Shown one piece after another: positions 19,053-25,927 of a stretch of DNA of 40,483 nt (position 1 is the stretch's first letter; each line of letters starts with the position of its first letter). The DNA lies in the NCBI GenBank assembly GCA_013151335.1, contig JAADIJ010000045.1:1-40483 (forward strand), given 5' to 3'. Under the pieces are notes generated by a model. That model ran no database searches, had not been told where the DNA came from, and worked only from the letters and a program-made list of their open reading frames with translations. A program made the position numbers and the translations under genes. The stretch is from Alphaproteobacteria bacterium. GTDB taxonomy: Bacteria > Pseudomonadota > Alphaproteobacteria > Rhodobacterales > Rhodobacteraceae.

Positions 19053-19129
19053 GCGGTTGTAGCTCAGCTGGTTAGAGTGCCGGCCTGTCACGCCGGAGGT
19101 CGCGGGTTCGAGCCCCGTCAACCGCGCCA
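19053..19129 (+). tRNA. tRNA-Asp (anticodon GTC)
   Basis: 77 bases including an encoded CCA (19127-19129). The acceptor stem GCGGTTG (19053-19059) pairs with CAACCGC; D-arm GCTCAGCTGGTTAGAGT is standard; the anticodon stem CCGGC/GCCGG encloses loop CTGTCAC with anticodon GTC at 19087-19089; the T-arm has GGTTCGAGC. The discriminator base is G, as required for Asp. A run of six T follows CCA directly. Confidence 0.98.
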
Positions 19130-19380: not shown

Positions 19381-20073
19381 CTATAATCTGGTGGTCATAC
19401 GGTAACCCGGCGCATAGGCGAGCCTGACAAAAGTTACCGAAACTTGTTTGATCCGGGTTAACCTTTCGGTCACAAACAGCGCTTTGCCAACGGTGGTATC
19501 AAGAGCTTCAGCCTCGGCCTCGTCGGCGTTCTTGGCCAAAAACGTAATCTCGCCACCGCTTAGGGGCGCGTTTTGTACCAGCCATTCGTTCACGCTGACA
19601 CGCGAGAAATCCGCCGACCGGATACCGGGCACTGCGGCCATGTTGATCCATCGGTCCTCGTATAAGTAGGGTTGGTCATTTGACAAATGTAATGTGCGGA
19701 TATGCAGGGTTTCTGCATGAATATCGAGCTTCATCAAAGCCTGAATAAAACTGGGGGCCAAGACATGAGCTTTCTGAAGGATTGCGTGGCGATAGACCCC
19801 GCCCAGAGCCTCGATTTCGCGCCGGATCACCGCAATATCAAAGGTCGCTTTGTGGACCGGATCGGGGCTGACGCGGGTGCCGGCTTTGCGACGGCGCTCC
19901 AAGATGCCGGTTTCGGCCAACTCGCGCAAAGCGCGGTTGACGGTCGCGCGCGCGCAGCCAAACTCTGCCGCCAATGCAACCTCGGAGGGGATTAAATCGC
20001 CGGGCCTCCAGACACGGGCGCGGATGCGGTGCAGGACCTCGGTTTGTATCCGTTGATAGGTTATCCCGCTCAC
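19381..20073 (-). CDS. hutC: histidine utilisation repressor HutC, GntR family
   Basis: 230 residues from GTG 20073, which overlaps the hutF stop (GTGA) and has GAGG 9 bases upstream; a longer frame only reads into hutF. The N-terminal winged helix-turn-helix (TYQRIQTEVLHRI, then PSEVALAAEFGCARATVNRAL and a wing with RRRKAGTRV) is GntR type, followed by a UTRA ligand domain (about 85-230) as in HutC/FarR. HutC represses hut genes until urocanate binds. Location inside the hut cluster supports the name. Its likely operator is at 21457-21478. Confidence 0.9.
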   Translation of the reverse strand: MSGITYQRIQTEVLHRIRARVWRPGDLIPSEVALAAEFGCARATVNRALRELAETGILERRRKAGTRVSPDPVHKATFDIAVIRREIEALGGVYRHAILQKAHVLAPSFIQALMKLDIHAETLHIRTLHLSNDQPYLYEDRWINMAAVPGIRSADFSRVSVNEWLVQNAPLSGGEITFLAKNADEAEAEALDTTVGKALFVTERLTRIKQVSVTFVRLAYAPGYRMTTRL

Positions 20074-21434
20074 AAGCCGGACCTCAATTTGCGTAAGCTT
20101 TGACGATAAGCGGCAGTGATCTCCGCCTCGCGAATATGTTGCCCGCCTCTGATCAAATGCCGCCCCGCCGACCATAGGTTTCGCACCAAATGATTGCCAT
20201 GCGCAAACAACCAGGTGTCGAGGAGCCGTTCCCCCCTCAGACCCTCAAAATCCGGATGGCTGGTATCGATTTCCACGATATCAGCCCATTTCCCTTTTGT
20301 GATCACACCACTGTCACGGGCCAGTGCCTGCGCGGACCCCGTGGCCGCATACTGGTATATCTGGCGTCCTGTCGAGGCTGTGTGGCCCCCGAATGCCGCG
20401 CGACAATGATCGCGCAAACGCTGCGAATATTCCAACGTTCGAATCTCTTCTGTCAATGATATCCGTATGTTACTATCCGTTCCTAATCCAAAAATACCCT
20501 GCTGATTGAGGTAATTCACCCCGTCAAATATACCGTCCCCAAGATTTGACTCAGTGATCGGGCAAAGTCCGGCCACCGCGCCAGACTTTGCGAGATCGCG
20601 GCTTTCTGTCTTGGTCATTTGCGTGGCATGGATCAGACACCAGCGCCGATCTACATTAAAATGCTTGAGCAGCCAGTCCACCGGCCGCGCGCCTAGATGG
20701 ACCTTGACCTCGTCTACTTCGGCCAATTGCTCTGCTATATGAATATGCAGTGGAGCGCCCGGAAACATCTGGGTAACCGCCCCAAGTGCGTCGGGCGAGA
20801 CCGCGCGCAGCGAGTGGGGCGCGACGCCCAGTCCACAGTCCGACGGCAGGTCATTCACACTTGTCGAGCAGGCCGATAATAGGCGTTCAAATTGCGCAAG
20901 CATCAGCCTAAATCGCATCTGCCCGCCCGTCAGTTCGCGCCCGTCACACCCCCCTTGGGTGTAAAGAACCGGCAGATGCGTCAGGCCGATGCCGCTCTGT
21001 TCTCTGGCGGCAAATATCCTGTGGCTCAGCTCTGCCGGATCGTCATACGCCGCGCCATCCGGTTGATTGTGCAGATAGTGAAACTCGCCTACAGAGGCAA
21101 AACCGACGCGCAGCATCTCCATCTGCGCGAAGGCGGCAATCGCCTGAATATCGGCGGGGGTCAGCACCTTAAGGAAGCGGTACATCAGCTTGCGCCACGT
21201 CCAAAAGCTATCATTAGCATCCGGCCCTTGGCATTCGGTAAGTCCGGCCATTGCCCGCTGAAACGTGTGTGAATGGAGGTTCCCTTGCGCGGGTAAAACC
21301 AGCGCCAAGGCCCGTCCTTGTCGTTCTTGATCGGGTATCACGGAGGCGATTCGTCCGTCTTTGCCAATCTTGATCAACACCTTTTCGGCCCAGCCATCGG
21401 CGGTAAGTGCCTGTTCGGCCCACAGAATTTCCAT
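20070..21434 (-). CDS. hutF: formimidoylglutamate deiminase HutF
   Basis: 454 residues from ATG 21434, giving the family N-terminus MEILWAEQALTADGWAEKV; an upstream ATG at 21473 has no ribosome site and lies in the promoter. The amidohydrolase metal motif is GNLHSHTFQRAMAG (HSH at 54-56), with HIHIAEQ, CLIHATQ and the zinc/Asp strand LGTDSN further on. It converts N-formimino-L-glutamate to N-formyl-L-glutamate plus ammonia, the step that defines the five-enzyme histidine route. It is divergent to hutI and translationally coupled to hutC. Confidence 0.94.
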   Translation of the reverse strand: MEILWAEQALTADGWAEKVLIKIGKDGRIASVIPDQERQGRALALVLPAQGNLHSHTFQRAMAGLTECQGPDANDSFWTWRKLMYRFLKVLTPADIQAIAAFAQMEMLRVGFASVGEFHYLHNQPDGAAYDDPAELSHRIFAAREQSGIGLTHLPVLYTQGGCDGRELTGGQMRFRLMLAQFERLLSACSTSVNDLPSDCGLGVAPHSLRAVSPDALGAVTQMFPGAPLHIHIAEQLAEVDEVKVHLGARPVDWLLKHFNVDRRWCLIHATQMTKTESRDLAKSGAVAGLCPITESNLGDGIFDGVNYLNQQGIFGLGTDSNIRISLTEEIRTLEYSQRLRDHCRAAFGGHTASTGRQIYQYAATGSAQALARDSGVITKGKWADIVEIDTSHPDFEGLRGERLLDTWLFAHGNHLVRNLWSAGRHLIRGGQHIREAEITAAYRQSLRKLRSGL

Positions 21435-21448
21435 CTCGCATACCCGGA

Positions 21449-21478
21449 TTGACAAGTTAATATGTGCAGACATAATAA
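21449..21478 (+). promoter_or_regulatory. promoter of hutI-hutH-hutU
   Basis: TTGACA (21449-21454), 18 bases, TAATAA (21473-21478). The -35 is a perfect consensus. Transcription would start near 21485, 27 bases before the hutI ATG. Confidence 0.65.
21457..21478. promoter_or_regulatory. candidate HutC operator
   Basis: Inverted repeat TTAATATGT-GCAG-ACATAATAA, eight of nine pairs matching, with the inner arms TATGT/ACATA perfect. The core TGT-N4-ACA has the same geometry as the TGTATATACA-like sites of HutC proteins. It overlaps the -10 of both hut promoters, as expected for a repressor site. Confidence 0.55.
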
Positions 21479-21484
21479 TGTTAA
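21457..21484 (-). promoter_or_regulatory. promoter of hutF-hutC
   Basis: Minus strand: TTAACA (21479-21484), 16 bases, TATTAA (21457-21462). It faces and overlaps the hutI promoter almost completely, so both directions can be controlled from one site. Start would be near 21450, leaving a leader of about 15 bases. Confidence 0.5.
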
Positions 21485-21511
21485 GTCTGGATTTAGCAAG
21501 AGAGTCCCGAA

Positions 21512-22717
21512 ATGTCCGTTACCCTGCTTACCAACTGCCAAGTCGCGCAGATGACCGCCGAACGCCCCTATGGTCTGATTCCTCGCGGAGCTGTTGCGCT
21601 TAAAGACGCCCTGATCGACTGGGTCGGGAGCGAGGACGAGCTTCCTACGCGCTATTCCGCCGCAAAAACCCACGATCTTGGCGGGCGGCTGGTCACCCCG
21701 ACGCTGATTGATTGCCACACCCATCTGGTTCACGGCGGGGACCGCGCACGCGAGTTTGAGATGCGGCTTGAGGGCGCGGATTACCAGGAAATTGCCAAAG
21801 CTGGGGGCGGGATCGTCTCGACCATGACCGCCACCCGAAGCGCCGATTTTGACGACCTGCTGGCGCAAAGCCTGCCGCGGCTTGACGCGCTGATCGCCGA
21901 AGGGGTGGCTGTGGTCGAGGTGAAATCCGGCTACGGGCTGACCATTCCCGACGAGATCAAAATACTGCGCGTTGCCCGCAAGCTGGCCGAGCTGCGTCCG
22001 GTGCAAATCAAGACAAGCTGGCTTGCCGCCCACGACATCGCGCCGGAATATCAGGGGCGCAGCGACGCCTATATCGACGAGGTTGCCATCGCTGGATTGC
22101 GCGAGGCCAAGGCTTTAGGACTGGTCGATGCGGTAGACGGGTTTTGCGAGGGGATCGCCTTTTCGCCGGCCCAAATTGCACGCCTGTTTGATGTGGCTGG
22201 CGAGCTTGGATTGCCGGTGAAGCTGCACGCCGAGCAGTTGTCAAATCTCGGCGGGGCGGCGCTTGCTGCCTCCTATAAGGCGATTTCGGCGGATCATTTG
22301 GAGCATCTGGATCAGGCCGGAATTGAAGCGATGGCGCGGACGCAAACGGTGGCAGTTCTGCTTCCGGGGGCATTTTTTACCCTGCGCGAAACCCAAATTC
22401 CGCCGGTTGACGCCTTACAAAAAGCCCAAGTTCCGATCGCGATCGCAACGGATGCAAACCCCGGCTCTTCGCCACTCTACTCGCCGCTGTTAACCATGAA
22501 TATGGCCGCAACCCTGTTTGGTTTAACTCCGCAAGAAGCGCTGGAGGGTATGACGCGTCACGCGGCAAGTGCGCTTGGATTAGCCGGTGAAACCGGAACG
22601 ATAGAGGCAAGCAAGCGTGCCGATCTGGCGATCTGGAACGTCAAACACCCCGCCGAGCTGGCTTATCGGATGGGGTTTAATCCGCTTTTCAAGACCATTA
22701 TCGGAGGCCGGATATGA
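21512..22717 (+). CDS. hutI: imidazolonepropionase HutI
   Basis: 401 residues. Metal-dependent amidohydrolase that opens 4-imidazolone-5-propanoate to N-formimino-L-glutamate. Metal site [12 protein letters not shown] (68-79), then [30 protein letters not shown] and [10 protein letters not shown], all family signatures. AAGAGAG lies before the ATG. The stop overlaps the hutH start (ATGA). Confidence 0.96.
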
Positions 22718-24240
22718 GGCTGATCCCGGCGCAAGTTTCCCTTGAGAAAATCCGTGCAATTTATTGCGGGGATCAGGTGGAAATCGGCCGAAACTGCCGC
22801 AAAGCTGTTGAAAAAGCTCACGAAATAATCAGGGCCGCTGCGTTAGGCGACGCGCCAATTTACGGCGTCAACACCGGATTTGGCAAGCTCGCATCGGTCA
22901 GGATCGCCAGCAGGGACACCGAGAAACTGCAACGTAACCTGATCCTCAGCCATGCGGCAGGTGTCGGCACGCCGCTGGCAACGAACCTGGTGCGATTGGT
23001 GATGGCGCTCAAGATGATGTCGCTGGGTCGGGGGGCATCGGGCGTTCGCTGGGCGGTTATCGTTCAGATTGAGGCTATTCTCAACAAGGGCGTGATCCCC
23101 GTCATCCCGTCGCAAGGTTCGGTCGGCGCGTCGGGCGATCTTGCGCCACTTGCGCATATGGCGGCGACTATGATTGGCGAGGGGCAAGCGCAGTATAAGG
23201 GCGAAACTCTTGTGTCGGGCGAGGCGTTGCGCCGGGCGGGGTTGGCACCGATTACGCTTGGCCCCAAAGAGGGGTTGGCGCTGATAAATGGCACCCAAGT
23301 TTCGACGGCCTTGGCGTTGGCCGGTCTGTTTGATATCTGGGATTTGGCGCTCAGCTCGCTGGTCACCGGAGCCATGTCAACCGAGGCGGCGATGGGATCA
23401 AGCGCGCCGTTTCGCCCCGAGATCCATGCGTTGCGCGGCCAACCCGGACAGATCGATGCGGCGCGCTGTTTGCGCGAGCTTCAGGATGGCTCGGCCATTC
23501 GCGAGAGCCACCGCGCAGGTGATGAGCGTGTGCAAGACCCCTATTGCATTCGCTGTCAGCCGCAAGTTTTAGGGGCAGCGCTTGACGTACTGCGCCAAGC
23601 GGCGAATGTGCTTGAAATCGAGGCCAATGCGGTGACAGATAATCCACTGGTGCTGCCTGATGGCTCTATCGTTTCGGGCGGGAATTTTCATGCCGAGCCG
23701 GTGGGATTTGCCGCCGATCAAATCGCGATGGCGGCCTCGGAAATCGGCGCGATTGCGCAACGACGCATCTCGTTGCTGGTCGATCCATCGCTGTCTTTTG
23801 GCCTGCCTGCGTTCCTGTCGCCCAATCCGGGACTTAACTCTGGCATGATGATCGCCGAGGTCACTTCGGCGGCTTTAATGAGCGAAAACAAGGCCTTGTC
23901 CAACCCGCGCGTGGTGGACAGCACCCCGACCAGCGCCAATCAGGAGGACCATGTCTCGATGGCATGCCACGGTGCGCGGCGCTTGGGCGAGATGGCCGGG
24001 AACCTCGCTGGCATCATCGGCATCGAAGGCTTGACCGCTGCCCAAGGCATCGAGCTGCGCGCGCCGCTCAAGACCAGCCCGGCGCTGGCGCAAAAGCTGA
24101 AACAGGTACGCGAGGTCAGCACGATGCTAAGCGACGATCGCCTGATGGCCCCCGAAATTGCCGCCGTCGTTACCCTTGTCAAACAAGGCGGATTGCTGCC
24201 TGACCACCCGCCACAATTGAAGGAAACCTCCCATGTCTGA
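22714..24240 (+). CDS. hutH: histidine ammonia-lyase HutH
   Basis: 508 residues, standard length. Removes ammonia from L-histidine to give trans-urocanate. The Ala-Ser-Gly triad that forms the MIO cofactor is at 139-141 in [20 protein letters not shown] (50-57) and QEDHVSM near the C-terminus are also diagnostic. It overlaps hutI by 4 bases and hutU by 8. Confidence 0.96.
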
Positions 24241-25927
24241 CCCAAAATTTGGCCCGCGCCACAACACGCGCACCATCAAATCCCCAACCGGCCCGGAACT
24301 GACGTGCAAAAGCTGGGCGACCGAAGCGCCGTTTCGGATGATCCAGAACAATCTCGATCCCGAGGTTGCCGAAAATCCGCATGAGCTGGTGGTTTACGGC
24401 GGCATCGGTCGCGCGGCGCGCACTTGGGCGGATTTTGACCAAATTACGGCCAGCCTGAAAGCCTTGAACGGGGACGAGACCTTGCTGGTTCAGTCGGGTC
24501 GTCCGGTCGGCGTTTTTCAAACCCATAGCGAGGCACCTCGGGTTCTAATCGCCAATTCCAACCTCGTTCCCGCGTGGGCCAACTGGGATCATTTCAACGA
24601 GCTCGACCGCAAAGGCTTGATGATGTACGGGCAGATGACCGCCGGTTCGTGGATTTATATCGGCACCCAAGGCATCGTTCAGGGTACGTTTGAAACCTTC
24701 GCCGAGGCCGGGCGGCAACACTATAATGGCGACCTCACGGGGCGGTGGATTTTGACCGCAGGCCTTGGCGGAATGGGCGGCGCACAGCCCTTGGCGGCGG
24801 TGATGGCGGGCGCGTGCTGTCTGGCGGTCGAGTGTAATCCTGAAAGTATCGATTTTCGTTTGCGCACGCGATATCTCGACGAAAAGGCCGAAACGCTTGA
24901 TCAGGCGCTGGAGATGATCTCGCGTTGGACGGCGGAGGGCGAAGCCAAATCCGTCGGGCTTTTGGGCAACGCTGCCGACATTTTCCCCGAGCTGTTTGCC
25001 CGCGGAATTCGCCCCGATATGGTTACCGACCAGACCTCCGCCCATGATCCGATCAACGGCTATCTGCCTCAAGGTTGGAGCATGGGGGAGTGGCGCCAAA
25101 AGCGTGAAACCGCCCCCAAAGAGGTTGAGGCGGCGGCGCGCGCGTCGATGAAAACCCATGTGGCCGCGATGGTGGATTTCGCAAAATCCGGCGTGCCGAC
25201 ATTTGATTATGGCAATAATATCAGACAAGTCGCCAAAGACGAAGGGCTGACGCAGGCGTTTGATTTCCCCGGTTTTGTCCCGGCCTATATCCGCCCGCTA
25301 TTTTGTCGCGGCATCGGCCCGTTCCGCTGGGTCGCGCTGTCTGGTGATCCCGAGGACATCTATAAGACCGACCAAAAAGTCAAAGAGCTGATGCCTGACG
25401 ACAAGAACCTGCATCACTGGCTTGACATGGCGCGCGCGCGCATTGACTTTCAGGGATTGCCCGCGCGGATTTGCTGGGTCGGCCTTGGAGATCGGCACCG
25501 TTTGGGGCTGGCGTTCAACGAAATGGTCGCAAGTGGCGAGCTGAGCGCGCCAGTGGTGATCGGGCGCGACCACTTGGACTCAGGCTCGGTTGCCTCGCCA
25601 AATCGCGAAACCGAGGCCATGCGCGATGGCTCGGACGCCGTCAGCGACTGGCCGCTTTTGAACGCGCTTTTGAACACCGCGAGCGGGGCCACTTGGGTCA
25701 GCCTCCATCACGGCGGCGGCGTCGGCATGGGCTATTCGCAACATGCGGGCATGGTGATTGTCGCCGATGGTACGGCGGATGCGGCGCGCCGTCTGGATCG
25801 CGTCCTGTGGAATGACCCGGCGACGGGGGTGATGCGCCATGCGGATGCCGGATATTCAGAGGCGATTAAATGCGCAGAGCAACGAGGGCTGGACCTGCCT
25901 AGCCTCAAGTCGCGTCAAAACTTTTGA
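24233..25927 (+). CDS. hutU: urocanate hydratase HutU
   Basis: 564 residues. NAD-dependent hydration of urocanate to imidazolonepropionate. The N-terminus [35 protein letters not shown] (NAD-binding) and the C-terminal [17 protein letters not shown] are family signatures. It is the last gene of the hutIHU operon. No hutG (N-formylglutamate deformylase) follows, so the final step must be encoded elsewhere. The TGA stop lies inside a palindrome shared with the convergent gene. Confidence 0.96.

Follow-up and report, generated by a model that had tools for sequence, protein, structure and literature searches.

A conserved palindrome in the hutF-hutI gap as candidate HutC operator overlapping a predicted two-way promoter

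The hut locus and its intergenic palindrome

The window, by which we mean the whole analysed stretch of 40,483 nucleotides of an alphaproteobacterial contig, carries two divergent groups of histidine utilization genes. The minus strand encodes hutF-hutC and the plus strand hutI-hutH-hutU, and each gene product scores above the cut-off of its family model (Table 1). The gap between the starts of hutF and hutI is 77 bp long. The hutF start at 21434 was read from the sequence and agrees with tblastn; the first ATG of the ORF caller, at 21473, would lie inside the predicted operator and was rejected, as tblastn fits 21434 instead. At the distal end of hutF, the probable GTG start of hutC at 20073 overlaps the hutF stop codon (GTGA), which makes it likely that both genes are co-transcribed. 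The encoded repressor consists of a GntR (PF00392) and a UTRA (PF07702) domain, both above the gathering score, and is the sole protein of the assembly above the TIGR02018 cut-off; ten further GntR-like matches in the genome all stay under it.

Table 1. Genes and predicted regulatory elements of the hut locus in the window
Feature	Position	Strand	Basis or remark
hutC, repressor	19381-20073	-	TIGR02018 254.5 bits, cut-off 220
hutF, formimidoylglutamate deiminase	20070-21434	-	TIGR02022 524 bits, cut-off 413
hutI predicted -35 TTGACA	21449-21454	+	TTGAC left of the core in 86/130 loci
predicted HutC operator core TATGT-GCAG-ACATA	21461-21474	.	conserved in relatives; full arms 21457-21478
hutI predicted -10 CATAAT	21471-21476	+	in the right operator arm; 16 bp spacer, 11/12 consensus
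hutF predicted -10 TATTAT	21472-21477	-	five base pairs common with the hutI -10
hutF predicted -35 TTGCTA (less certain)	21494-21499	-	9/12 scan match; CAA in 58/86 class A loci
hutI, imidazolonepropionase	21512-22717	+	TIGR01224 426 bits, cut-off 298
hutH, histidine ammonia-lyase	22714-24240	+	TIGR01225 670 bits, cut-off 539
hutU, urocanate hydratase	24233-25927	+	TIGR01228 953 bits, cut-off 375

Two side observations concern the surroundings of these genes. In the window, hutH and hutU overlap at 24233-24240, and they are adjacent also in four congeners (L172-L175), whereas about 0.85 kb separates them in many relatives, a space in which we would expect hutG; no HutG (TIGR02017) was found above the cut-off of 278.75 in the genome of the window, the best match reaching 108 bits at G000:C56. 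Moreover, a tRNA-Asp (gtc) at 19053-19129 on the plus strand sits within an automatically called 202-aa ORF that matches no Pfam family and is unlikely to be a gene.

All letters quoted by an earlier sequence-only reading of this DNA are found at 21449-21484, and the inverted repeat that it described there is real: TTAATATGT-GCAG-ACATAATAA occupies 21457-21478, with eight of the nine arm positions pairing around an asymmetric GCAG centre. An exact TATGT-N4-ACATA occurred in 0.02% of 20,000 dinucleotide shuffles of the hutF-hutI intergenic region, and the whole 3.29 Mb assembly contains this single exact copy. With one mismatch allowed, the core is found at 35 other places, compared with 17 for the reversed pattern, and these places were not retained as further HutC targets, as they are mostly chance-like. 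A second full operator to the right, which was noticed by eye (TAAGT-CTGG-ATTTA, 21481-21494), has three mismatches in ten positions and was dropped.

Conservation of the palindrome and the promoter elements around it

Altogether 155 hutI loci were examined, namely the window, 80 loci from named genomes, which are the best kept of at least 576 confirmed relatives, and 74 loci from further genomes of the family and the genus to which the window belongs. For the latter, 66 of the 125 other genomes over the HutI cut-off in the family sample were used (60, a further 5 and one congener; 59 were left out), and eight additional congeners were added. A divergent hutF (137 loci) or hutC (7 loci) adjoins hutI in 144 of the 155 loci, the window included. 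As merging was limited to identical 58-base flanks, which reduced these 144 to 141 rows, near-duplicates remain among the 141 regions, and the window itself is counted both there and among the 130 regions mentioned below.

The exact core is present in 105 of the 141 distinct intergenic regions (shuffled mean 0.03), and when one mismatch is allowed, the number rises to 130 (shuffled mean 0.78). The palindrome centred on GT-N4-AC is thus conserved at hut operons, and dozens of genera keep the centre together with the arms, the relatives that share it including named members of the Rhodobacteraceae and Hyphomicrobiales, among others. The sequence-only reading had proposed such a comparison as one of its checks and had named a lack of conservation among the outcomes that would speak against it; with 130 of 141 regions, it is not refuted on this count. 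An additional right half-site word lies at core +27 to +32, i.e. 21 bp or two helical turns downstream, in 20 of the 130 loci; the window does not have it. Where present, it might allow additional HutC subunits to bind.

The promoter elements were profiled in the 130 loci that remain when the 11 rows with two or more mismatches are excluded. In 86 of these loci (window included), TTGAC is found at most 22 bp to the left of the core, compared with 0/130 for the other strand and 4/130 for the reversed word. The most common offset is -12 (38 loci), which is also that of the window, and in 52 of the 86 loci the word is at -12, -13 or -14, corresponding to spacers of 16, 17 and 18 bp to CATAAT. The 86 loci with TTGAC left of the core are referred to as class A and the other 44 as class B; as class A is defined by TTGAC, the share of TTGAC within it is no evidence, and what supports the hutI -35 element is the fraction of 86/130, the offset peak and the co-occurrence with an element on the right side that is described below.

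In a promoter scan of 21300-21620 that demanded A2 and T6 in the -10 element, as did the scan of the relatives, two promoter-like pairs were detected, compared with 0.2 in shuffled sequences. The plus-strand pair, TTGACA-N16-CATAAT (21449-21476), matches the consensus in 11 of 12 positions and predicts a hutI start at about A21483, a position occupied by A in 56 of 86 class A loci. In the relatives, the plus-strand scan gave matches in 51 of the 86 class A loci, compared with a mean of 12.8 and a maximum of 19 for shuffled flanks, in which only the base make-up was preserved, and 31 of the 47 class A matches listed (51 in total) have the CATAAT layout. The sequence-only reading had combined the same -35 element with TAATAA at a distance of 18 bp. 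Its TTGACA is well supported by the relatives, but CATAAT at 16 bp is the better -10 element: at least four of six letters match TATAAT at the CATAAT position in 76 of the 86 class A loci, compared with 44 at the TAATAA position, when no single letter is demanded.

The situation is less clear on the minus strand, where the second pair of the scan, TTGCTA-N16-TATTAT (21499-21472), matches in 9 of 12 positions and predicts that hutF transcripts begin within the operator, at about 21465 (an A on this strand). CAA, the minus-strand TTG, begins at core +36, +37 and +38 in 36, 13 and 9 class A loci, respectively, together 58 of 86, and these positions give spacers of 16, 17 and 18 bp to TATTAT. An average position has CAA in about 3 loci, and the next highest peak is 17 at +27. 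The two -35 elements tend to occur together, as the right TTG is found in 49 of the 56 loci that have the left TTG at -14 to -12, compared with 12 of the 74 others; with one genome per genus, the numbers are 26/29 and 8/28. In a pair test on a quick FastTree tree of 121 HutF rows, 3.6 of 9 independent pairs changed in the same way and 0.1 in opposite ways, a trend that agrees with the co-occurrence but is not significant (median p 0.125), and shared ancestry may account for the co-occurrence. Among the loci whose left TTG is at -14 to -12, both key -10 letters are present in only 36 of 56. Minus-strand matches were obtained for 30 of the 86 class A loci, with a mean of 14.9 and a maximum of 28 for shuffled flanks, which is a weaker signal than on the plus strand, and 18 of the 26 class A matches listed (30 in total) are at the TATTAT position. 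In 53 of 57 loci, 6-20 bases separate the right TTG element from a following in-frame start (26-52 bases in the other 4), and the element may in part be the ribosome binding site of hutI.

What alternative exists for this assignment of the hutF promoter? The sequence-only reading had placed it at TTAACA-N16-TATTAA, with the -10 element in the left arm of the palindrome. The HutC operator would then still be common to both operons and the promoters would overlap, but they would have no -10 element in common. This placement also matches in 9 of 12 positions and thus ties with the TTGCTA pair in the window; the scan listed only the latter because the final T of the -10 element was demanded, which made TATTAA, as well as the TAATAA proposed for hutI, unscorable. 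When that rule is omitted and spacers of 16-18 bp are permitted, the TTGCTA placement outscores the TTAACA placement in 65 class A loci out of 86, is outscored in 8 and ties in 13. By mean class A score over 44 positions, the TTGCTA placement is highest and the TTAACA placement third, which still is a point in favor of the latter, as are a mild bias in columns 18-23, a stronger conservation of the left arm in class A, and the occurrence of T[CT]AA at core +20, where a TTAACA -35 element needs it, in as many class A loci (15 of 86) as at +35. However, TCAA is found at +20 in 4 loci and at +35 in 15, the -35 element reaches four of six matches in 12% of class A at the TTAACA place and in 38% at the TTGCTA place, and a start that would then be expected at about 21450 would leave hutF with a leader of only some 16 nt. 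The TTAACA placement, although as good as its competitor in the window, is thus poorly conserved, and we regard it as unlikely.

With TTGCTA and TATTAT as the preferred hutF elements, the two -10 elements oppose each other in a characteristic way. The letters -7T and -11A of the two directions pair reciprocally at 21476 and 21472, as judged from the predicted starts and the sequence letters, T is found at -18 for both predicted starts (21483 and 21465), and these starts are 18 bp apart. Common -7T/-11A pairs and T at -18 are the sequence features by which bidirectional promoters are defined in the available text of PMC10268837, and the hutF-hutI gap has both.

Association of the palindrome with HutC

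The presence of HutC-like proteins was scored in 75 genomes at an E-value of 1e-40 or better. Such a protein was detected in 72 of them, with 71 above the cut-off, and only three genomes were without it (G014, G004, G194). Among the 71 genomes with the divergent layout, the core with at most one mismatch is present in 66 of 69 that have HutC and in neither of the two that lack it (Fisher p 0.004, uncorrected for descent); the exceptions with HutC are G062, G008 and G254. The third HutC-less genome, G004, has no divergent hutF, and no site with up to two mismatches was found in the 600 bp before its hutI. The site thus follows hutC, as far as three available HutC-less genomes permit such a statement.

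Rearranged loci are informative as well. In the congener G252, in which the operons are apart, hutH and hutF-hutC have an exact operator between them (L205), and a second operator precedes hutI-hutU elsewhere (L177). Among the 11 hutI loci without a neighboring divergent hutF or hutC, 8 retain the site before hutI and 3 do not. Five Ruegeria loci (L041, L049, L050, L064, L070) have the hutF-hutI divergon, with hutC adjoining hutF in all five, and contain the core only at three mismatches, in a palindrome region that differs and matches poorly, and it may be that their HutC operator has drifted. When hutC is apart from hutF, an exact site precedes it in L206, but no site with at most one mismatch was found before hutC in eight other stretches (L209, L210, L214-L219), and therefore self-control through the operator is not universal.

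The palindrome is, on this comparative evidence, very probably the HutC binding site. HutC presence and absence, the two copies in G252 and the hutI loci without neighbors together favor a single type of HutC site for both operons, and one operator common to the two is a well-supported interpretation. This was also the proposal of the sequence-only reading, and it remains the best one. It could in principle be that the site controls hutI only, and that hutF-hutC are merely adjacent and transcribed from a weak or distant promoter, which would agree with the weakness of the minus-strand promoter and with the separated hutC genes of several genomes that have no site before them. Yet hutF-hutC of G252, away from hutI, are preceded by an exact operator that is common with hutH, and a divergent hutF has been retained at 137 of the 155 hutI loci, with the site at up to one mismatch in 130 of the 141 divergent regions, and such a restriction to hutI therefore appears quite improbable to us. 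Even less probable is that the palindrome just reflects an AT-rich promoter or serves a different repressor of the GntR type, in whose favor the ten sub-cut-off GntR-like matches in the genome can be cited, since the GT-N4-AC centre and its arms are conserved across dozens of genera, the palindrome is missing in HutC-less genomes, and the HutC-subfamily consensus given in the available text of PMC4494728 matches.

A putative two-way switch and its relation to known systems

The sequence elements, their conservation and their link to hutC are direct observations, and they are likely best explained by a 77-bp gap in which a single HutC operator is combined with one two-way promoter that has a shared -10 element. 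TTGACA (21449-21454) would drive hutI-hutH-hutU and TTGCTA (21499-21494 on the minus strand) would drive hutF-hutC, and both directions would use a -10 segment, CATAATA at 21471-21477, that coincides in part with the operator's right arm. As long as urocanate is absent, a HutC dimer bound to 21457-21478 would cover the shared -10 segment together with the predicted hutF start and would thereby block both operons, including hutC itself. Urocanate that is derived from histidine would then release HutC and free both directions. Mutual exclusion of the polymerases at the shared -10 segment, which the sequence-only reading had proposed, is sterically likely, but according to the available text of PMC12825309, basal transcription from five bidirectional promoters of E. 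coli is too low for polymerases to compete.

Several parts of such a mechanism are already known from other systems, namely the operators of divergons, the presence of HutC in Alphaproteobacteria, and bidirectional promoters. In operators of the HutC subfamily, GT and AC are separated by four bases, and a single central site usually regulates both operons of a divergon (Suvorova et al. 2015, PMC4494728, as far as its available text goes). The locus described here resembles these divergons in the type of regulator, the GT-N4-AC palindrome and the nearly central position of the site; in that text, however, sites are placed relative to genes and not to promoter boxes, and a shared -10 element in an operator arm finds no mention there. 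HutC orthologues are reported for all alphaproteobacterial groups that were studied in PMC5343134, to judge from the accessible part of that paper. In Pseudomonas, HutC binds TGTA-N2-TACA between the divergent hutF and hutCD, the promoters overlap, hutC is autoregulated, and urocanate dissociates the HutC complexes (PMC12977541, available portion). The arrangement in the window is similar in that a candidate HutC operator lies between divergent hut genes and overlaps the predicted promoters, but while hutF faces hutCD in Pseudomonas, hutF-hutC here faces hutI-hutH-hutU, and therefore all hut genes that were found at the locus would depend on one site. For Brucella abortus, which like the window represents an alphaproteobacterial hut promoter with HutC, it has been described that urocanic acid induces the hut promoter and the HutC protein (PMC3328445); the portion of that account which is available contains no operator or promoter map, in contrast to what can be drawn here.

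As for the promoter, bidirectional promoters have divergent starts at distances of 7-25 bp, most often 18 bp, and use one common -10 element with reciprocally paired key letters and T at -18 (PMC10268837 and PMC12825309, in their accessible parts). At the acrA/acrR bidirectional promoter of E. coli, the local repressor acts on both genes, according to the same portion of PMC12825309. The hut gap would be comparable, as its two starts, which are predictions, are likewise 18 bp apart on a common -10 element, and as a local repressor would act on both operons. The difference from acrA/acrR is that the repressor is HutC and that the arm of the palindrome itself carries the shared -10 element. None of the literature matches listed joins HutC with a bacterial bidirectional promoter. 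To this, our analysis would add the footprint traced through many relatives and the interpretation of an operator arm as shared -10 element.

Since the shared -10 element overlaps the operator, the locus would be a clean case for the control of a bidirectional promoter by a repressor; apart from this overlap, it would be ordinary catabolic control. If the model is true, single-base changes at 21472 and 21476 should reduce transcription in both directions. A guess from one sequence is thereby turned into an arrangement, a proposed single self-regulated switch for histidine breakdown, that is open to tests in a whole family of bacteria.

The layout does not extend to all relatives in the same form, as 44 of the 130 loci (class B, e.g. 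L058, L074, L164) have no external TTGAC and therefore need another one. Their operator centre mostly is ATAG or CTAG and is strongly oriented (ATAG 18 versus CTAT 2), TA is frequent at core +29/30 (84% and 89%), and many of these sites are closer to hutF. This suggests, as a lead, that in class B the operator itself supplies the hutI -35 element (TAGACA); among the plus-strand scan matches in class B, only 3 of 10 support such an operator-supplied element. It is quite possible, though we propose it with reserve, that the repressor arm holds the shared -10 element, that this arrangement is kept across many genera, and that it has repeatedly been swapped for the TAGACA layout; operator and core promoter would then form one co-evolving element that switches the catabolic pathway together with its repressor. 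On the quick HutF tree, the class A/B label changes at least eight times.
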